Shown: one piece after another, positions 23,853 through 33,617 of the stretch
Position numbering within the stretch: the stretch's first letter is position 1
How the letters are laid out: every line of letters begins with the position of its first letter
Source: Streptomyces venezuelae
Lineage (GTDB): Bacteria; Actinomycetota; Actinomycetes; Streptomycetales; Streptomycetaceae
Direction: 5' to 3'
NCBI RefSeq assembly: GCF_008642335.1
Contig: NZ_CP029191.1
Span: 1,488,001-1,552,000 of the forward strand
DNA length: 64,000 bases
Position numbers and translations under genes: made by a program
Notes under the pieces: generated by a model
What the model was told of the DNA's origin: nothing
Databases searched by the model: none
The model's input: the letters and a program-made list of their open reading frames with translations, nothing else

Positions 23853-25095
23853 CTCTCCGCTCAGGACGGTCGGTACCGTCAGTACGGCCAGTTGCGCCCC
23901 GGGGGGTTTCCGCGTCCCCGGGGCGCTTCCGCTTCCGTACGCCCAGCGCCGCCGCCGCGAACAACAGCCCGCCCAGCATCACGAACGGCGCGGCCACACC
24001 CGCGACCCCCGCGATCAGGCCCGCCGCCGCGGGCGCGGCGACCTGCCCGAGCCGGTTGCCGGTGAGCCGCAGCGCGAGCGCCGTGGAGCGGGCGCCGTCC
24101 GGTGCCGCCTGGACGACCGTCGTCATGGACAGCGGCTGGCCGACGCCGAGGCAGAACCCGAGCACCGCGAGCACGAGCGCGAGACCCCACACCGGCAGGG
24201 GCAGCGCGATGCCCGCGCAGAGCAGCCCGGCGACGAGGCAGGTGGTGGTCAGCAGCGCCGTCCTGCCCAGGAGCCGGATCAGCGGCGTCATCACGAGGCG
24301 GCACGCGATGGTCGCCGCCGCCCGCAGGGACAGGAGCAGCCCCACCGTGGCGGGCGCGATGCCCCGGTGCTCGCCGACCACCGGCAGGTACGCCGTGAGG
24401 ATGTCCGTCGCGGAGAGCACGGCGAGGCTGATGAAGATGCCCGCGGGCACGCCCCGCGTGCGCAGGATGCCGAGAACCGGGACGCGCTCGGCGCGCGCCG
24501 GGGCGGTCGGCTTCGGCCGCTTGTGCTCGATGCGCCACAGCGAGCCTAGGGAGACCGCGGCGACCGCCGCCGACACGAGCAGGGCGAGCGCGCTGGTGCG
24601 GTCCATGTCGGCGCCGATCAGCGCACCGGCGGCGATCGGTCCGATCAGCTGGCCGAGGGAGGCGCCGATGGTGAAGTGACCGAAGTTGCGGTCCTGTTCG
24701 GCGGGTGCGGACTGCCGGGCGACGATCGACTGCGCGCCGATCACGAAGCAGAGGTGGCCGAGCCCCATGACACCGCTCCAGGCCGCCATCGCGGCGAGCG
24801 AGCCCGCGATGCCGCTGAGGGCACAGCCCCCGGAGATCAGGACGACGCCGACGGGCAGGAGCGGCGCGCACCGGCCGTGGTCCGTCCTGCGCCCGAGCGG
24901 CACGGCGGCGAAGAGCGGAAGCAGCGCGTAGACGCCCGCGATGACGCCGATGGCCCGCTCGTCGGCGCCGAGCGCGAGGGCCCGGTAGGAGACGGCGGGC
25001 CGCGCCATGGACACCGCCCCCTGCGCGAAGCTGAAGGCGATGACGAGACGGAGCAGCCAGCCCCTGCCACCGGGCCCGGATGACGCGTGTGGCAT
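23836..25095 (-). CDS. MFS transporter
   Basis: A 419-residue major facilitator with about twelve hydrophobic segments and the inter-helix loop motif GRRTDHGR near residue 65. The sugar-phosphate/drug-efflux style sequence does not reveal a substrate. ATG 25095 shares one base with the stop of the citrate transporter gene (TGATG), so translation of the two is coupled. Its C-terminal tail, a hydrophilic Arg/Thr-rich stretch, is encoded across the end of the opposite-strand subtilisin gene. Confidence 0.9.
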   Translation of the reverse strand: MPHASSGPGGRGWLLRLVIAFSFAQGAVSMARPAVSYRALALGADERAIGVIAGVYALLPLFAAVPLGRRTDHGRCAPLLPVGVVLISGGCALSGIAGSLAAMAAWSGVMGLGHLCFVIGAQSIVARQSAPAEQDRNFGHFTIGASLGQLIGPIAAGALIGADMDRTSALALLVSAAVAAVSLGSLWRIEHKRPKPTAPARAERVPVLGILRTRGVPAGIFISLAVLSATDILTAYLPVVGEHRGIAPATVGLLLSLRAAATIACRLVMTPLIRLLGRTALLTTTCLVAGLLCAGIALPLPVWGLALVLAVLGFCLGVGQPLSMTTVVQAAPDGARSTALALRLTGNRLGQVAAPAAAGLIAGVAGVAAPFVMLGGLLFAAAALGVRKRKRPGDAETPRGATGRTDGTDRPERRVTERS

Positions 25096-26516
25096 CAGAT
25101 GATGCCGAAGAGGATGCCGGAGCCGAGCACCACCAGCGAGGTGAGCACGGCCCATTTGACGGTGAACTTGGTGTGGTCGCCGAACTCGACCTTGGCCATG
25201 CCGACGAGGACGTACACGGCGGGCACGAGCGGGCTCGACATGTGCAGGGCCTGGCCGGCGATGGAGGCGCGGGCGATCTCCAGGGTGCCGACGCCGTGCG
25301 CCTGGCCGGCCTCGGCGAGGACGGGCAGGACGCCGAAGTAGAAGCCGTCGTTGGACATGAAGTACGTGAGCGGGATGGAGAGCAGCCCGGTGACCAGGCC
25401 CATCTGCGGTCCCATGCCCTCGGGGATGGCGTCGACGAGCCAGTCGGCCATGTGGTCGACCATGCCGGTGCCCTGGAGCACGCCGGTGAAGACGGCGGCC
25501 GCGAAGACCATGCCGGTGACGTTGAGGACGTTCTCGGCGTGGGCGCCGATGCGGGCCTTCTGGTCGGGCATGTGCGGGAAGTTGACGGTGAGGGCGAGCG
25601 CGGCGCCGAGCAGGAAGAGGACCGGGATCGGCAGCCACTCCATGATCATGGCGGTGAGCAGGAGGACGGTGAGGGCCGCGTTGAACCAGTAGAGCTTGGG
25701 GCGCAGGGTGGGCCGGTCGGGGTCGAGCCCCAGGAACCCGTCGTCGTCGGTGTCGCTGTCGGGTGCGTCGGTGCCGTCGCCCGCGCCCCCGGTGGCCTTC
25801 TTCGTGAGCGACGTACGGCTGTCGCCGTCGCCCCCCGCGCCGACGAGGACCGTCTCGTCGGCCGTCTCCGTCTCCTTCTCCAGGACCTCGTCCAGCGAGA
25901 GGATGCCGAGCCGCTTGCGCTCGCGCAGACCCAGGGCGTACGCGAGGAGGAAGACGGCGACGAGCCCCATGGCGAGTGCCGGGATCATCGGTACGAAGAT
26001 GTCGGCGGCGTCGACCTTGAGCGCGGTCGCGGCGCGGGCGGTCGGGCCGCCCCAGGGCAGGGTGTTCATGACGCCGTTGGCGGTCGCGGCGACACCCGTC
26101 ATCACGACGAGGCTCATCTTGAGGCGCTTGTACAGCGGATACATCGCCGAGACCGTGATCATGAAGGTCGTCGAGCCGTCGCCGTCGAGGGAGACGATCG
26201 CGGCGAGCACGGCGGTGCCGACCACGATGCGCACCGGGTCCGCCTTGCAGAAGCGCAGGATGCCCCGGACGATCGGGTCGAAGAGGCCGACGTCGATCAT
26301 GACGCCGAAGTACACGATGGCGAACATGAGCATGGCCGCCGTGGGCGCGAGATTGCCGACGCCTTCGAGGACGTAGTCCCCGAGATGGGCTCCCTTTCCT
26401 ACGAACACGCAGAAGAGCGCGGGGATCAGCACCAGTGCCGCGATCGGCGACATCTTCTTCATCATGATCAGCACCAGGAAGGTGGCGATCATGACGAATC
26501 CGAGGATTGTCAGCAT
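25095..26516 (-). CDS. CitMHS family citrate/metal:proton symporter
   Basis: A 473-residue carrier with about twelve membrane segments, starting MLTILGFVMIATFLVLIMMKK and containing SLDGDGSTTFMIT and MNTLPWGGPTARAA, both characteristic of the CitM/CitH family that imports citrate complexed with divalent metal. An acidic cytoplasmic loop around residues 215-270 (many Asp, Glu, Gly) joins the two halves. It is the first gene of a two-gene unit with the MFS protein. No two-component system for citrate is adjacent, so regulation is unclear. Confidence 0.93.
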   Translation of the reverse strand: MLTILGFVMIATFLVLIMMKKMSPIAALVLIPALFCVFVGKGAHLGDYVLEGVGNLAPTAAMLMFAIVYFGVMIDVGLFDPIVRGILRFCKADPVRIVVGTAVLAAIVSLDGDGSTTFMITVSAMYPLYKRLKMSLVVMTGVAATANGVMNTLPWGGPTARAATALKVDAADIFVPMIPALAMGLVAVFLLAYALGLRERKRLGILSLDEVLEKETETADETVLVGAGGDGDSRTSLTKKATGGAGDGTDAPDSDTDDDGFLGLDPDRPTLRPKLYWFNAALTVLLLTAMIMEWLPIPVLFLLGAALALTVNFPHMPDQKARIGAHAENVLNVTGMVFAAAVFTGVLQGTGMVDHMADWLVDAIPEGMGPQMGLVTGLLSIPLTYFMSNDGFYFGVLPVLAEAGQAHGVGTLEIARASIAGQALHMSSPLVPAVYVLVGMAKVEFGDHTKFTVKWAVLTSLVVLGSGILFGII

Positions 26517-26637
26517 GGGGGCTACCTAACGTTCACCATCGAACTCCCACCAGGTCTGGCGGTCCGGACGACGTTAGGACTCGCCATCAGCCGTTAACAA
26601 GATGTTGACGCGCGAGCAATAAGCGCAAAACTCCTGG

Positions 26638-29600
26638 TCACGGCGGGGTGTCGGGGATGTCGACAAGGATGACGCCGTTGCGGGTGGCGACGGCGAGCTC
26701 GCCCTCCGGTCCCGTGGCCAGGCCCGTACAGACGGAGGGGAGCTCGACCCGGACGTGGACGGCGCCGTCGAGGACTCCGGCGACGACGAGTGCACGGCCG
26801 CCCACCGTCGCGTACGTCCGGGCTCCGGGGAGCACGACGGCGTGGCGCCCGGGGATCGGGGACTCGTGCTCGGTCACGGTACGCACGTGGAGCCGCTGCA
26901 CGCGCCCGACCGGGCCGTCGAGCCCGGCCAGGATGGGGGCGACGGGCACCACGGCGGTCCTGCGCTCGCCGACGAGCACCAGTGCGTCCTCGGGTCCGCC
27001 CGGGAACGGGGCCAGGGCCCGTACGTCGCCCCGGCCGGGCAGCAACAGTCGGTGCCAGGTCTCCACGTCGATGAGGTAGAGGCCCAGGGAGGCCGGGACG
27101 GCCAGAAACCACCGGCCTCCACAGCACACCGATGCCGAGCCGCCGGCGAGCAGGAGCCGAGGGGCGGCGATCAGCAGCCCTTCGCGGAGCGGGCCGCGGT
27201 CGACGTCGTGCACGGCGAGCGAGAAGGGGGGCCGCCAGTAGTCGAGCGCCAGCGCCACATCCCTGTCGTACGCGGACCGCCCCGGCAGGCGCGCCAACGA
27301 CGACAGCGTGCCGTTGCCGCTCAGCACGACGCCGCGCCGCACCTGCCTGGCCGGATGCGCGCCCGCCGGGCCACCGAGCCCCCAGCTCTCCACCACCCCC
27401 TGCTCGCTGCGGGTGAAGAGCATGCGCTGCGGCGGCTCACCGGGCCCGGCCCCCCGCGCCGCCATCAGCTCGACGACCGCGCTCTGGCAGGCGGGCCGCA
27501 GCTGGTGGAGCAGCGCGCCATCCCTGCCGTCCCGCACCTGGACCGTCCCGTCGGACCCGCCGACCGCGACGGCGGTGCCCCCGTCCACGGCGAACGCCGC
27601 GACGGCCGTGGCGCTCGGCACGGCGTCCAGCGCCTCGGTCAGTTTCCAGCCCCCGGCGCGCTCGGCACGCTCGTCCAGCCGCCACAGCGTGCCCCGCTCG
27701 TCACCGCAGAGCAGCCCGCCACCGGCCGCCTCCCCCATGGACCGCAGGGGCAACGGAAGCCGACGTTCCCACGCGCCATCGCCACCGGTCAGCGCGACGA
27801 GACGGCGGTCACCACCCGCGCTGAAGGCCCGCGTGCCGCGCGTCCCCCGGGCGAAGGCGAGGGTGTGCACAGGCGCGTCGTGCACGCGGCGCGGCGCGCC
27901 GAGCGGGCGGCAGGCGGGCAGCGTCCATTCCCGTACGGTGCCGTCGTCCGTGCCCGCGAACAGGCGCCCCGAGCCGTCGGGGTCGAGGGCCAACGCCGTC
28001 ACCCAGGAGGGCCGTTCGGGCTCGGGGCCGAGCCCGTACCACCGGCCGTGCGTGACGTCCCAGCAGGCGACGCGCCCGGTACCGGTGGCGGCCACCACCA
28101 CGTCACGGCCGCACACCGTCCCCGTCGTCACGGCGGTGACGATGCCGGGGACGGCGAACTCCCCCTCACCCAGCGGCACTCCACCCGGCAGCGTCACCAC
28201 CGACACCCGGCCGCTGACCTCCCCCGTCACCACCAGACCGTGCCCCTCGCGGGTGCGCCCGACCGTCGCGCAGGTCACCAGCGAGTACGTCCACGGCTGC
28301 GCGTGCCGCAGCTCCCTGCGCCACAGCTCCCGCTGCTGCACGAGATCCCAGCAGCGGATCCGGTGGTCCCGCCCGACGCTCACCAGGGCGCTGCCCGCGT
28401 CCCGGCCCTGCACCGCGCCGACGGCAATCACCGGCGCCTCGTGCGCGTCGATCCGCGTGGAGTCGGCGGCGTGCACGCCGGACCAGAGCCGGATCACCCC
28501 GTCGTCCCCGCCGATCACCGCCGTATCGCCCACCGCGCACACGGCCGCCGCCTCGTGCAGCCCCTCCTGCCCGCCGACGCGGTCCCCGGTGACCAGGTCG
28601 TACAGCTGGAGTCCCCGCCCCGAACCCTGCACGCTCACACACTCGGCCGAGCCGAGCCGGAACGTCGCGAGCCGCACCCGGCCGTCGCTCCCGATCCGCA
28701 GCGGCAGGCCCACGGGGCGTCCGCTGTCCAGGTCGAGGCGGTGCAGCAGGCCGTCCGAGGTGGCGACGGCGACGATCCACTGGCGGCCCACCCGGTGCAC
28801 GGCGAACGTGCGGGGCAGCGGGACGTGTTCGAGCAGCGTGCGCACGGGAACCTCGCCGGTCAGCGAAGTCAGACGGACCGTGCCGTCGGCGCCCAGGGTG
28901 ACGACGAGTTCGCCCTGCGCGTGCCCGGGGACGTGGGCGAGGGCGAGGATGTCGCCGTGGTGCGCGGTCTGCACGGCCGGGCCGAACTCTTCGAGGTCGG
29001 TGATCCGTACGGTGGCGTCCGAGTACCCCGTGAGCATCTTGTGGCCGTACTCCGAGGGCAGGGCGGCCAGTGCGGTGATCCGTTCCGCCGTCCCCGAACG
29101 CGCGTCGCCCGGCTCGGAACGGCCCGTACACGACGACTCGAGCTGCAGCTCCAGCCGCTCCAGCCGTTCCCTCTCGTAATCGAGCAGAGCACGTCGACGG
29201 CGCCGCGACATCCGGGGCTCGGAACTCTTCCGGTTCAGCGTGTACGTGAGACAGTCGCCGTCGCCGAAGCGCAGGACCACGTGGGTCGGCGGGCCCGCCC
29301 ATTCCGCGTCGCGCCACACATGTATGTGCTCGGGCAGGCGTAGCCCCCGGCGTTCGTGCCCGGCATCGGCCGCGTGGTGGGGCAGCAGACGCCAGCACCA
29401 GTAGCGGTTCCGTGTCGCGTCGAAGACGTGCAGCAGCCGCCACTGCCGGGAGCGCAGTTCACCCTCTCCGAAAGTCACGTGCCGGTCGTTCGACAGCGCC
29501 ACCGCGTAGCCCGGCAGTTGAGGCGGCGCCGTCCACGTGGAGCCGAAGACGAACTCGGCGGTGGCCCGCTGGTCCGATAGATCACCGGTGTCCAGGTCCC

Positions 29601-32061
29601 GGACCACGGCCCTGTTCCAGTACGACCGCTTCTCCAGGAAATACGCCCCCTCCCCCACCGGCACCACGACCCCACTCCCCGGCCCCGCCTCCATCCCCTC
29701 GTACCGTCGCGCACCCCCATGCGGATTCCACGCCGCCCACCGCGCCCGCCACGGCAGATCCCCCCGGTCGCACGACGCGGCCAGCGCGGTCGCCTTGCGG
29801 CAGACGGCGGCGAGCCGGAGCCTGGCCCGGCTCCCGGGGTCGGCGGTGCGCACCCGGCGGCTCCGCAGCACCTCCTCCACGTCCCGAACGGCCCGCCCGG
29901 CCCGCCGCCCGTCCGCCGTGCGCAGGCGGGGCAGCGCGGCGAGGAGCTGGTCCGGGTCGGCGGTCAGGACGAAGTCCGCGTCCTCCACCAGCGGGTCGAG
30001 GACGCCGCCCTCCGCCGCGTGCAGCGCGAGATACCGGCGTACGTAGGCGTGATCCAGATCCTTCAGCACACCCGCGACCACGGCCTGCACCCGCTGGACG
30101 CTCCGGCTCTCCCGCAGGTACTCCACCAGCGCCCGGTGGTAGATCCGGTAGACGGACCCGCCGTCCTCCGCGTGCTCGATGTCCTCGACCACGTACGACC
30201 CGGCGGCCTGCGTCAGCCAGACCACGTCCTCGTCCCCGTACACCCGTCCGCTGATCGCCGTCGCGAGCCGCGGCCACACCCCGCCCCACGGCAGACCCAC
30301 GCCCTGCGCGAAGGCGAGCGGCCGCAGGAGATCGCGTGCCCGGTCCGCCAGCGGGCCGAGGCGCTGCTCCAGGTCGCGTTCCATCGCCTCGCCGGGCAGG
30401 CGGGGCAGTTCGTCGCGCCAGTGGCGGTCGTCCGGGTCGGGCACGCGCGTCTCGCGGGCGGTGGTGCGTGCGGTGATGCGGGCGACCAGGAAGGAGCGGC
30501 CCGCCGCTTCGGCGATGGCCCCGGCGACGGCGTCCACGCGGTCGGGCGGCGCCGTGCACAGCACGGACCCCGGCGTGGTGAGCAGCTTGCGGGTGTAGGC
30601 ACGGACGGCCTGCGGGTCGCCGTGCCGCTCGTCGTCCAGGTCGATGCGGCTCGCCGACGCGGGCAGCAGGCGGGCGATGTGGGGGCGGGCGCCGACGAGG
30701 AGGCGCAGCGGGAGCTGGCGTCTGGGGTCGATGAGCGGGGCGATGAGTTCCTCGACGGTGTCGTGCGGGTCGAGCGCCTCGTCGAGGGAGTCCATGAGGA
30801 CGACGAGCGGCTCGGTGCGTGCCTGGAGGTGGGCGGCGAGCGCGCCGAGGGACGCGGCCGCGCAGCCGGAGGCGGCGGCGAGCGCGTCGAGGAGCTGTCG
30901 TTTCGTCTTGTGGGACGCGTTGACGGCGACGTCCACGGCGCCCGGTTCGGGGAGGCGTGCGGGCAGGCCCGCGCGGACCACGGCGGCGGCGTGGGCCGCG
31001 TCGGTGAGCACGGTGACCATGCCGAGCAGGGAGGACTTGCCGGAGCCGGGGTCCCCGGTGACCACGCACAGGCGGTCGGCCGCGCGATGGGGCGCGAGCC
31101 AGTCGGTGATGTCGGTCAGGGCGGTGTGCCGTCCTGTGAAGTCCCAGACCTCTTCGGTGGGTACGTCGGTGCCGCGCGCCCTGGGCAGGAAGAACCCGGT
31201 CAACTCGGCGGTCCGGGCGCGACGTTCGCGTGCGGTGAGGTCGATGATCCGGTCGATCTCCTCCAGCTTCAGGCCGGAGGCGCCGGGGACGTGGCGGGGG
31301 TTGGACAGGAAGTCGGGAATGTCGGCGACGGCGTGGGTCACGGACCAGTTGGCCCGCTGGGTCGGTGGGACGAGGGGGTCTTCCCTGATGGCGCGCATGA
31401 CCTGGCCGATGCCGATGTGGGCGGGCGCGTGCCCCGCGGTGGCCTGGCTGCGGACCGCCCGGTCGAACGCGGCCGACAGGGCCCCGGCGACCGCCTCCTC
31501 CTTGCGCCGGGAGGCTGCGATGATCACCAGGCCGGTGCTGGTGGGGTCGGTGACGGAGTTCCCGGTGCGGCGCGCTTCGAGGGCGGTGCGCAGCGCGCTG
31601 TCGGCGCCCTCCTCGGCGTAGCAGGCGTCGATGAGCACGAGGAGCCGCGCCACGGGGGTGTCCTCCCACAGCAGGCCGACGAGGTCCTCGGTGGGGAGGG
31701 CGGTGCCGCGCAGGTCGCGGGTGTCGCTGTCGGCGAGCAGCAGGTAGTGGCGGCCGCTGTGTTCGGCGGTGACTCCGTGGCAGGCGAGGTAGAGGACGAC
31801 GTAGTCGTCGGGGGCGCGGTCGGGGGCGGTGGCGAATGCGCGCAGGGTTTTGATGAGTTGTTCGCGGGTCGGGTTCAGGGCCAGGTCCGCGCCCCTGCGG
31901 TAGCCGAGTTCGCCGAGGAAGAGCCGGTCGATGCGGGCCGCGTCGTCGGCGAGCTCGGGGCGTGCGGCCTCCGGGTGGGCGTGGACGTCCGTGACCGCCG
32001 TCGACAGGAGGAAGCGCCGCGCCGACGCGGGCGGCGGAGTGAGGGTGCCGTCAGCCGTCAC
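26638..32061 (-). CDS. Caspase-like peptidase fused to a STAND NTPase and WD40 beta-propellers
   Basis: A 1807-residue multidomain protein. Residues 1-250 are a caspase-like (C14) domain with the dyad His95 (LACHGV) and Cys147 (IDACYAE). Residues about 300-600 are a STAND/NACHT-like P-loop NTPase: Walker A GDPGSGKS at 336-343, Walker B VVLMDSLDEA at 420-429. A helical region (600-800) follows, and then WD40-like repeats from about 900 to the end, with repeating GxDGTVRxWxL-type units. This is the sensor-switch-effector order of STAND conflict systems: the propeller senses, the NTPase oligomerises, and the caspase cleaves. GTG 32061 overlaps the upstream hydrolase by 11 bases. The trigger and the caspase target are unknown. 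Confidence 0.93.
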   Translation of the reverse strand: MTADGTLTPPPASARRFLLSTAVTDVHAHPEAARPELADDAARIDRLFLGELGYRRGADLALNPTREQLIKTLRAFATAPDRAPDDYVVLYLACHGVTAEHSGRHYLLLADSDTRDLRGTALPTEDLVGLLWEDTPVARLLVLIDACYAEEGADSALRTALEARRTGNSVTDPTSTGLVIIAASRRKEEAVAGALSAAFDRAVRSQATAGHAPAHIGIGQVMRAIREDPLVPPTQRANWSVTHAVADIPDFLSNPRHVPGASGLKLEEIDRIIDLTARERRARTAELTGFFLPRARGTDVPTEEVWDFTGRHTALTDITDWLAPHRAADRLCVVTGDPGSGKSSLLGMVTVLTDAAHAAAVVRAGLPARLPEPGAVDVAVNASHKTKRQLLDALAAASGCAAASLGALAAHLQARTEPLVVLMDSLDEALDPHDTVEELIAPLIDPRRQLPLRLLVGARPHIARLLPASASRIDLDDERHGDPQAVRAYTRKLLTTPGSVLCTAPPDRVDAVAGAIAEAAGRSFLVARITARTTARETRVPDPDDRHWRDELPRLPGEAMERDLEQRLGPLADRARDLLRPLAFAQGVGLPWGGVWPRLATAISGRVYGDEDVVWLTQAAGSYVVEDIEHAEDGGSVYRIYHRALVEYLRESRSVQRVQAVVAGVLKDLDHAYVRRYLALHAAEGGVLDPLVEDADFVLTADPDQLLAALPRLRTADGRRAGRAVRDVEEVLRSRRVRTADPGSRARLRLAAVCRKATALAASCDRGDLPWRARWAAWNPHGGARRYEGMEAGPGSGVVVPVGEGAYFLEKRSYWNRAVVRDLDTGDLSDQRATAEFVFGSTWTAPPQLPGYAVALSNDRHVTFGEGELRSRQWRLLHVFDATRNRYWCWRLLPHHAADAGHERRGLRLPEHIHVWRDAEWAGPPTHVVLRFGDGDCLTYTLNRKSSEPRMSRRRRRALLDYERERLERLELQLESSCTGRSEPGDARSGTAERITALAALPSEYGHKMLTGYSDATVRITDLEEFGPAVQTAHHGDILALAHVPGHAQGELVVTLGADGTVRLTSLTGEVPVRTLLEHVPLPRTFAVHRVGRQWIVAVATSDGLLHRLDLDSGRPVGLPLRIGSDGRVRLATFRLGSAECVSVQGSGRGLQLYDLVTGDRVGGQEGLHEAAAVCAVGDTAVIGGDDGVIRLWSGVHAADSTRIDAHEAPVIAVGAVQGRDAGSALVSVGRDHRIRCWDLVQQRELWRRELRHAQPWTYSLVTCATVGRTREGHGLVVTGEVSGRVSVVTLPGGVPLGEGEFAVPGIVTAVTTGTVCGRDVVVAATGTGRVACWDVTHGRWYGLGPEPERPSWVTALALDPDGSGRLFAGTDDGTVREWTLPACRPLGAPRRVHDAPVHTLAFARGTRGTRAFSAGGDRRLVALTGGDGAWERRLPLPLRSMGEAAGGGLLCGDERGTLWRLDERAERAGGWKLTEALDAVPSATAVAAFAVDGGTAVAVGGSDGTVQVRDGRDGALLHQLRPACQSAVVELMAARGAGPGEPPQRMLFTRSEQGVVESWGLGGPAGAHPARQVRRGVVLSGNGTLSSLARLPGRSAYDRDVALALDYWRPPFSLAVHDVDRGPLREGLLIAAPRLLLAGGSASVCCGGRWFLAVPASLGLYLIDVETWHRLLLPGRGDVRALAPFPGGPEDALVLVGERRTAVVPVAPILAGLDGPVGRVQRLHVRTVTEHESPIPGRHAVVLPGARTYATVGGRALVVAGVLDGAVHVRVELPSVCTGLATGPEGELAVATRNGVILVDIPDTPP

Positions 32062-32908
32062 CGCATCCCTCCCCCACCGCTCTCCCCGCCTCCTCGGTGC
32101 ACAGGTAGCGGGTCACGTCGTGTGCCCTGGAGCCGTTGTGGACCAGGTGGCCGCGGACCCGGTCGCCGAACAGGGGGCGCAGGTCCTTGACGAGGGCGAC
32201 GACGTCCCCCGCGTCGGCGATGTTGGTCCAGTGCTCGACGCGGCCCGGCCAGTCCCCCGGGCTTCCGTCCTCGCCCACGCGCAGCCGGTCGAAGACGAGG
32301 TGCCGGATGCCCAGCGGCGAGCCGAGCGTCAGGAGGGCGCGGGCGGGCCATTCGGGGTGGGCACAGAGCGCTTCGTAGGCGACGACGCTGCCCAGGGAGT
32401 GGCCGATGACGACCCGCGTGTCGTCGGTGACGGCGGCCGCGACCCGACACTGGACCTCGGCGCGGACGGCCGGGTCCGTGAGGTAGGCGCGCACCTGCTT
32501 GAGGTCGAGCACCAGGGAGCGCAGCGCGACGTCGGCGAAGAACCGGGAGCGGCTCAGTGCGTTCAGCGCGCGCTGCACGGTGCGTGGGGTACGGGCGAGG
32601 GTGCGGGCGTCGGGCGGCAGGACGGCGGGGTCGGTGCGGGCCGCCTCCGCCCACCACTGGAGGAGCAGCTCGCTCTCCAGGCCCTCGGCGACGTCGGAGG
32701 CGTCAAGGGGCGGGTCCTGGACGCTCAGGGTGCGGCCCGGGGGACGGAACAGGTCGCCGTAGAAGACGCAGGTCACGTCCGTGGCGGCCAGCGGCGGGGC
32801 GGCGGCGCGGGTCAGTCCGTCGGCGAGCGCGGGGCGCCAGGCGGCGTACAACTGGCTTTCGCCCACGTGCTGCTGCCCGATCCCGTGGACGCACACCACC
32901 CGCGCCAT
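32051..32908 (-). CDS. Alpha/beta serine hydrolase coupled to the caspase gene
   Basis: A 285-residue lipase-like hydrolase starting MARVVCVHGIGQQ, the oxyanion strand of PGAP1/lipase-type enzymes. The nucleophile is Ser171 in VVIGHSLGSVVAYEAL. Asp232 or Asp235 (NIADAGDVVA) and His263 (SRAHDVTRYL) fit the rest of the triad. No signal peptide, so it acts inside the cell. Its stop lies 11 bases inside the caspase-STAND-WD40 gene, so the two are translated together and probably act together, either as a second effector (membrane lipid or ester cleavage) or as a substrate of the caspase. Function is inference. Confidence 0.9.
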   Translation of the reverse strand: MARVVCVHGIGQQHVGESQLYAAWRPALADGLTRAAAPPLAATDVTCVFYGDLFRPPGRTLSVQDPPLDASDVAEGLESELLLQWWAEAARTDPAVLPPDARTLARTPRTVQRALNALSRSRFFADVALRSLVLDLKQVRAYLTDPAVRAEVQCRVAAAVTDDTRVVIGHSLGSVVAYEALCAHPEWPARALLTLGSPLGIRHLVFDRLRVGEDGSPGDWPGRVEHWTNIADAGDVVALVKDLRPLFGDRVRGHLVHNGSRAHDVTRYLCTEEAGRAVGEGCGDG

Positions 32909-32966
32909 GGTCCCCCTCGGCCCGCCGATGACTTCGATCGCCTCAGTGTCGAGCCCGGCGCCCGCC

Positions 32967-33617
32967 TCAGTCCAGGGACAGCGCGAAGTAGGCGTGCAGC
33001 AGGATCCGTGCCTCGTCGACGAGTGCCGGGTCCCCCGACGGGTCGGCGCGGAAGGCGAGTTGGAGGACCGCGTCGACCGCTTCGACGCCGACGAGGATGG
33101 TGCGGCGCAGGGCGGCGTCCAGCGGGCGGTTGAGGTGGAGGGCGAGGAGGGCGGCCACCCGGTCGGCGACCTGCGAGTTGGCGTCCGGCATCGCGTCCGG
33201 CGCGGAGGGGACGCCGAAGTCGACGAGGCCGAAGCCGGGGACGGTGCGCATCATCACCAGGTACTCGTCGAAGGCCGCGTCGACGGCGCCGCGCCAGTCG
33301 CCGTGCTCGATGCCGGTCACGCGGGCGGCCACCCGTTCCGCGTACGCGTCGAGGTTGCGGTGGGCCAGCGCGTCCGTGAGGGCCCTCTTGTTGCCGAAGA
33401 AGCGGTAGACCGAGCCGATGGGGACGCCGGCGCGCTGGGCGACGGCGCGGGTGGTGAGGCCGTCGTAGCCGGTCTCGTCCAGGACGGCGGCGCAGGCGTC
33501 GAGGATCCGCGTCAGGCGCTCGGCGCTGCGCTCCTGCACGGGGAGGCGGCGCATGGAGGACGGGACTCGTGGACCCTCGGGCGGGTTCGGGTGGGACATT
33601 CCGGGAGAGTAGAGCAT
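32967..33617 (-). CDS. TetR family regulator next to homogentisate dioxygenase
   Basis: A 216-residue TetR protein with the helix-turn-helix TTRAVAQRAGVPIGSVYRFF at about residues 55-74 and a C-terminal helical domain. ATG 33617 has AAGGTGA upstream; ATG 33599 lacks one. It is 58 bases upstream of the hydrolase-caspase genes on the same strand and divergent from the homogentisate dioxygenase gene, so it could control either. Two GCTTCCTCTT repeats just upstream may be its operator. Confidence 0.86.
   Translation of the reverse strand: MLYSPGMSHPNPPEGPRVPSSMRRLPVQERSAERLTRILDACAAVLDETGYDGLTTRAVAQRAGVPIGSVYRFFGNKRALTDALAHRNLDAYAERVAARVTGIEHGDWRGAVDAAFDEYLVMMRTVPGFGLVDFGVPSAPDAMPDANSQVADRVAALLALHLNRPLDAALRRTILVGVEAVDAVLQLAFRADPSGDPALVDEARILLHAYFALSLD

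Follow-up and report, generated by a model that had tools for sequence, protein, structure and literature searches.

That a caspase should be paired with an alpha/beta-hydrolase is not new. In the portions of Kaur et al. 2020 (PMC7159879) available to us, caspase VMAPs are always accompanied by a neighbouring alpha/beta-hydrolase gene, and a caspase with a related hydrolase is listed among the GAP1-N1 effectors; the portion of PMC12799240 at hand describes protease-nuclease pairs in Hachiman, AVAST and Canu, and that of PMC13236601 mentions phospholipases that replace gasdermin in CARD-NLR systems. The window examined in this study, a stretch of 64,000 nucleotides of the Streptomyces venezuelae chromosome (positions 1488001-1552000 of an 8.05-Mb single-contig genome), contains a further version of this pairing, in which a caspase fused to a STAND NTPase and a WD40 sensor region is encoded directly after a lipase-like alpha/beta-hydrolase. 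Neither the accessible portion of PMC7159879 nor a non-exhaustive literature search yielded a description of this STAND-WD40 version. The two genes form a well-supported coupled effector-switch-sensor unit with a lipase-like partner, and their parts are as follows.

32051..32908, minus strand: alpha/beta-hydrolase gene (lipase-like), 285 aa; nucleophile Ser171 in GHSLGS, acid Asp235 (or Asp232), His263
26638..32061, minus strand: caspase-STAND NTPase-WD40 giant gene, 1807 aa, GTG start; overlaps the hydrolase gene by 11 bp
31312..32028, minus strand: caspase (C14) domain of the giant, about residues 12-250; dyad His95/Cys147, invariant Asp145
29962..31164, minus strand: STAND/APAF-1-like NTPase of the giant, about residues 300-700; P-loop 336-343, Asp424 in Walker B
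26641..29094, minus strand: C-terminal WD40/beta-propeller sensor region of the giant, about residues 990-1807; degenerate repeats

The hydrolase gene lies upstream of the giant gene, the 11 bases common to both being GTGACGGCTGA, and the GTG start of the giant is preceded by a GGGGGAGGGA stretch. Re-reading of the sequence reproduced both open reading frames (ORFs), their overlap, and the residues named in the original prediction (His95, Cys147, P-loop 336-343, Ser171, Asp232/235 and His263). The placement of a caspase dyad, a P-loop NTPase and WD40 repeats on one chain was likewise borne out by Pfam, alignment and structural matches. Peptidase_C14 matched residues 32-190 of the giant (E 1.5e-8, above cut-off), which also matched AAA_16 (E 1.3e-6) and WD40 (E 3e-13), as well as nSTAND1 (E 5.8e-6) and NACHT (E 3.6e-4), each below its cut-off. 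Residues H95, D145, C147, G336, G339, G341, K342 and D424 were invariant in an alignment of 42 giants. Replacement of His95 or Cys147 in most homologues, the outcome that the original prediction had named as counting against it, was not found: among all rows of the caspase hidden Markov model (HMM), which include duplicates and short copies, the His was kept in 120/120 and the Cys in 118/120. Asp145, two residues before the catalytic Cys, is presumably the S1 acid of paracaspases and metacaspases, which would imply cleavage after Arg or Lys.

The predicted model of giant residues 1-740 (predicted local distance difference test score, pLDDT, 92) had APAF-1 as its top structural match in the PDB (E 2.4e-10), followed by yeast metacaspase, MALT1, CED-4 and plant resistosomes. 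The N-terminal domain belongs to the caspase superfamily (C14) by its fold and His-Cys dyad, and the switch is a STAND NTPase of the NLR/APAF-1-like kind by its P-loop, Walker B and STAND-type fold. The likeness to the APAF-1/CED-4 apoptosome thus extends to the closest NTPase fold, the WD40 sensor and the caspase output; however, the caspase of the window is fused in the chain instead of being recruited through a CARD, a lipase-like enzyme is co-encoded, and assembly is here a prediction. A WD40 region is present as proposed, but the proposed length of about 900 residues of repeats was partly extrapolated and the repeats are degenerate: WD40-type Pfam matches fall at about residues 992-1524, where only one WD40 (PF00400) stretch passes by itself. 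Conservation is lower in the sensor region than in the core: in the comparison with L031 the values are 41% for the sensor, 68% for the NTPase and 60% for the caspase.

In an alignment of 41 hydrolases, S171, D235 and H263 were invariant and D232 was present in at least 90%, and D235 is therefore the better candidate for the acid. The intact Ser-Asp-His triad and the alpha/beta-hydrolase fold of the predicted model (pLDDT 92) agree with the proposal that the gene encodes a complete serine hydrolase, and the first strand already begins at residue 4, which leaves no space for a signal peptide. The structural matches of the model to lipases, esterases, thioesterases and dienelactone hydrolases were tied in score; the longest structural alignments among the rows listed were to the DDHD domains of Nir1/Nir2 (202-211 residues), and Nir2 was also the top profile match, at a non-significant E of 0.11. 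The family is large, with 4217 proteins at E <=1e-10 among 7997 scored candidates, and many of the 120 listed proteins carry the name 'hypothetical protein'.

The association of the two genes was examined from both sides. A scan for the hydrolase, with one genome per species, gave 50 loci in named genomes, and an ORF matching the caspase HMM lay beside the hydrolase on the same strand in 48 of them. The distance was within 150 bp in 46 loci, and the wider gaps measured 186 bp (L045) and 607 bp (L039, where the giant has a second hydrolase directly upstream). One locus counted as lacking a caspase, L071, had just a short caspase-like match (E 3e-6) near a contig end, and another, L080, consisted of a partial hydrolase with no caspase match. 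Forty-five of the 50 loci belonged to Actinomycetota and three to cyanobacteria; the set includes Nitrosospira, Methylomonas and Microcoleus/Lyngbya, and the partner protein in Lyngbya is a caspase-STAND-TPR protein. The hydrolase gene was upstream in 53 of 63 same-strand pairs of the window type. A swap of effector was considered for nine hydrolase loci that were caspase-negative in the first pass (L045, L057, L059, L066, L070, L074, L075, L076 and L078) and was rejected when an iterated HMM found diverged caspases.

Independently of the hydrolase, the NTPase segment of the window was searched in 199 relatives, giving 93 places, of which 68 were fetched and 25, the window's own among them, were neither fetched nor classified; L110 (frame-broken), L159 (unclassified) and L112 (hydrolase present, caspase part missing from the ORF) stand outside all counts for this set. 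With adjacency defined as a gap of up to 400 bp for genes on the same strand or 600 bp for divergent ones, an alpha/beta-hydrolase gene adjoined 44 of the 49 caspase-STAND proteins with an HMM-detected caspase. These partners comprised 25 window-type and 8 LCAT-type genes on the same strand and 4 window-type and 7 LCAT-type genes in divergent orientation. Adjacent hydrolases were found beside 0 of the 14 STAND proteins with a trypsin-like domain (6) or no detected protease (8; Fisher p 3e-10); in one of the latter, L158, an LCAT-type ORF lies 3.7 kb away on the other strand and was not counted as adjacent. Two further giants missed by the caspase HMM (L142 and L149) show caspase-like motifs on inspection by eye, and their partners are of the LCAT type. 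The possibility raised beforehand that the two genes rarely occur together is therefore not supported from either direction.

Five of the 49 caspase-STAND proteins had no adjacent partner, and two of these have lost the catalytic cysteine (C to Y in L130, C to S in L154) compared to none of the 44 partnered proteins (p 0.0085); across all loci read, none of the 82 caspase-STAND proteins with a partner lacks the dyad. L130, which has neither the cysteine nor a partner, falls inside the first of the LCAT clades described below. The other three partnerless proteins (L121, L122 and L124) have an intact dyad, and L121 and L122 adjoin the same acyl-CoA-dehydrogenase-like gene, as named by eye.

The LCAT partners matched PF02450 with E-values of 1e-8 to 4e-14 or better in the seven proteins scanned, and in a caspase tree of 93 rows they occupy two supported clades that are separate from each other, the starred branches forcing three label changes. 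The tree carries long-branch warnings for L155, L156, L097, L154, L041 and L086; it includes L155 and L156, which fall within the first LCAT clade by a join that may be false. The use of a second lipase family at this position points to lipid hydrolysis as the property that has been kept. The six STAND proteins with a trypsin-like N-terminus (L123, L127, L128, L136, L138 and L144) have the same NTPase family, and their trypsin-like domains were recognised from motifs by eye and a local HMM, the Pfam scan of L128 giving WD40 models alone among 25 of 45 families. A Trypco1 gene (PF19493) lies upstream in five of the six, three of them confirmed by Pfam, and the small upstream ORF of L123 had no Pfam match. 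This pairing is the STAND counterpart of the trypsin-Trypco rule in VMAP systems, and such swaps (trypsin-like plus Trypco1) were seen in the NTPase-found loci alone.

Also noted were short STAND proteins of 648-780 aa (L137, L139, L140, L146 and L148) that begin almost at the NTPase and possibly represent another system; L140, L146 and L148 share a conserved downstream gene of 443-457 aa with the motif RWLNPEG...EFDLGWVVWA, and L137 and L139 have an NTPase-like gene upstream. Additionally, L151, L152 and L193 are split versions, in which whatever follows the NTPase (WD40 in L193) is encoded by an ORF of its own beside the caspase-NTPase gene.

The pair is not confined to the STAND chassis. 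Matches to VMAP-C occurred in 84 of the 150 relatives scanned for it, and hydrolase-caspase pairs were present in 7 of the 20 VMAP regions read (L161-L167), a figure that is not a rate, as six of the regions were chosen for a nearby weak hydrolase match (L166 was not chosen in this way). The caspase in these pairs stands alone, and the hydrolase adjoins or overlaps its gene, with an overlap of 4 bp in L162, L164, L165 and L166; a further VMAP region, L177, additionally carries a caspase-STAND gene. On a Hymenobacter (Bacteroidota) plasmid (L190, 3713-6379) a caspase gene is followed by a hydrolase gene, and on a Sinorhizobium fredii plasmid (L191, 5498-7503) the hydrolase overlaps a CHAT gene by 4 bp, both as two genes without STAND. 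On a Rhodococcus megaplasmid, a hydrolase is followed by a caspase-STAND-WD40 giant, with an integrase, a recombinase and an insertion sequence (IS) nearby; the Leptolyngbya (Cyanobacteriota) version has a 4-bp overlap between the hydrolase and a caspase giant. The pair thus spans four phyla: Actinomycetota, Pseudomonadota, Bacteroidota and Cyanobacteriota.

Compared to the VMAP (MoxR-vWA) ternary systems, the locus has the same combination of a caspase and a neighbouring alpha/beta-hydrolase, the proteins are homologous, and in four of the seven VMAP loci holding the pair the two genes are arranged in this order and overlap by 4 bp. However, the caspase of the window shares its chain with a STAND NTPase and WD40 sensor, and the VMAP-locus hydrolases, which belong to the same family (HMM E 7e-16 to 1e-12), carry an insertion of about 110 residues. 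Pfam found no VMAP, vWA or MoxR in the two genes and three flanking genes (CitMHS, TetR and HgmA), and one weak VMAP-C match (E 9.4e-4), without a listed position, occurs in the genome; the locus has the pairing of the VMAP ternary systems but, in the genes scanned, not their components. A lipase-like partner for a caspase is accordingly not the unusual feature that the original prediction took it to be, given the VMAP and GAP1-N1 examples in the available part of PMC7159879. The resemblance to Hachiman, AVAST and Canu, as far as the accessible portion of PMC12799240 describes them, lies in a protease (fused to the switch in Hachiman and AVAST) whose effector enzyme is encoded in the adjacent, typically upstream gene; the effector here is an alpha/beta-hydrolase and there an MBL nuclease, and a gating-loop site was not recognised here. 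Canu hallmarks (a caspase with an Ig-like fold and an MBL-fold nuclease) were absent from the Pfam matches listed for both genes, which for the giant cover 25 of its 26 matching families, and of the PADLOC models (AVAST and others) the giant matched just mad8 (E 0.074) and the hydrolase none. Lastly, the EACC1-caspase system of Kaur et al. 2020 also consists of two genes with a caspase-containing giant downstream, and its caspase model is the best NCBIfam match of the giant (53 bits versus a cut-off of 140); however, the upstream gene of that system encodes a membrane protein and that of the window a hydrolase, and the locus is not a member of that group.

With a probability of roughly one half, we interpret the pair as a sensor-gated self-destruct (conflict) system of two genes. 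The WD40 region would sense a trigger, the STAND NTPase would build an APAF-1-like ring in which the fused caspase is activated by proximity, the caspase would act on or license the co-made hydrolase, and the hydrolase would attack membrane lipids, with the cell being killed or arrested. The domains, the intact active sites, the close co-occurrence of the two genes, the exchange of the hydrolase for LCAT-family lipases and the presence of the pair in other chassis are observed and favour a caspase-lipase unit controlled in the manner of APAF-1; the trigger, oligomerisation, order of action, lipid substrate and role in defence are proposals. Cutting of the hydrolase by the caspase would be the simplest link, by analogy with the Hachiman, AVAST and Canu pairs in the available part of PMC12799240, and a lipid-attacking end point is plausible because phospholipases take the place of gasdermin in the systems covered by the accessible part of PMC13236601. 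Several observations weigh against this interpretation. Eight of 40 further hydrolase regions in relatives had no caspase or NTPase nearby; all eight (L087, L088, L090, L091, L093, L095, L118 and L119) hold distant hydrolases (151-222 HMM bits), and the pairing rule therefore applies to the close family and not to every alpha/beta-hydrolase. In addition, L121, L122 and L124 keep the caspase dyad without an adjacent partner, hydrolase distances in a mirror-tree comparison track the caspase only slightly above the NTPase (partial rho 0.40 versus 0.35), and the hydrolase fold does not favour a phospholipase above other alpha/beta-hydrolases. The flexible hydrolase loop at residues 101-110 has no invariant Arg or Lys in the 41 sequences (R106 in 17/41), which gives no sign of one conserved activating cut; R55, present in 39/41, merely borders a loop. 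Finally, no recognised defence island was found by PADLOC among 97 of the 123 listed flanking genes of related loci. These flanking genes matched 32 PADLOC families at E <=1e-10, counted without an enrichment control, and the 25 families listed comprised mad2 (3 genes), mad3 (3), mad8 (2) and others with one gene each, mostly type I methyltransferase plus SspA, DndA, type II methyltransferase and GlgB. Of the STAND immune or self-killing role in the original prediction, the coupled effector-switch-sensor unit with its lipase-like partner stood, but no association with defence islands was found, the flanking genes scanned in the window being metabolic or regulatory and those of related loci matching few PADLOC models.

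A more specific version of this self-destruct system, which we advance tentatively and at less than even odds, is that the giant works as a bacterial apoptosome in one chain and that its caspase switches on the lipase by proteolysis, a counterpart of pyroptosis by lipolysis, and that it belongs to a mobile protease-partner cassette (caspase-lipase or trypsin-Trypco1) that moves across sensor chassis (STAND-WD40, STAND-TPR, VMAP-vWA-MoxR, or none) in at least four phyla. Among the alternatives, it is unlikely that the hydrolase instead restrains or matures the caspase, as an esterase or thioesterase holding it off or recycling an acyl mark, with the caspase as sole effector. The fold is equally near the acyl-protein thioesterases (APT1, TesA), the partner is missing at both dead-caspase loci, as expected of a restraint no longer needed, and the hydrolase gene usually comes first (53/63); however, the longer LCAT-family lipases in separate clades are easier to reconcile with common lipid chemistry than with restraint through a specific protein-protein contact, and three intact caspases exist without an adjacent partner.

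The lack of a conserved cleavage-site signature in the hydrolase, where such a site was looked for in the 41-sequence alignment and not found, would also be expected if the two enzymes were parallel effectors recruited or switched on by STAND assembly, the hydrolase not being proteolysed, and both active sites are indeed invariant in the alignments. This arrangement nevertheless appears improbable, as pairing follows the type of protease and not the STAND chassis (trypsin-STAND proteins have an adjacent hydrolase in 0/6 and Trypco1 in 5/6), and hydrolase-caspase pairs also occur without any STAND.

The pair is flanked by a TetR gene on one side and a CitMHS transporter gene on the other (interval 25095-33617), and the flanking genes scanned in the window encode this transporter, the TetR regulator and a homogentisate dioxygenase (HgmA). 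The TetR-CitMHS slot is variable: of eight relatives picked because the two genes lie close together (L181-L188), six have other genes there, with a molybdopterin-oxidoreductase-like protein (identified by eye) clear in three of these, and two have just about 145-220 bp. In Streptomyces atriruber NRRL B-24165 (L034/L102, 6054-9308) the same slot contains a hydrolase with a broken frame and a giant that lacks about residues 733-1755 (the WD40 part); a full-length hydrolase exists in another S. atriruber record. A role in programmed death or development (hyphal lysis, sporulation) instead of phage defence is very unlikely: it would suit the predominance of Actinomycetota (45 of 50 named loci, with three cyanobacterial), whose genera here are mostly mycelial, and the metabolic or regulatory flanks, but a housekeeping gene of development would be expected to vary less than one with hydrolase matches of any kind in 71 of 199 relatives, a slot empty or otherwise filled in the eight relatives, and copies on plasmids and in Nitrosospira, Methylomonas and Hymenobacter.

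To the known pairing of caspase and alpha/beta-hydrolase, this study adds an apoptosome-like STAND-WD40 chassis, two-gene plasmid versions, an extent of four phyla and the swapping of lipases. The locus is a compact, expressible system of two genes that combines the parts of an animal apoptosome (sensor, APAF-1-like switch and caspase) with a candidate membrane-attacking enzyme, so that what the caspases of bacterial conflict systems cut or switch on becomes addressable with a few point mutants. In addition, the partner rule, caspase with lipase and trypsin with Trypco1, predicts partners for many proteins that are now named hypothetical.

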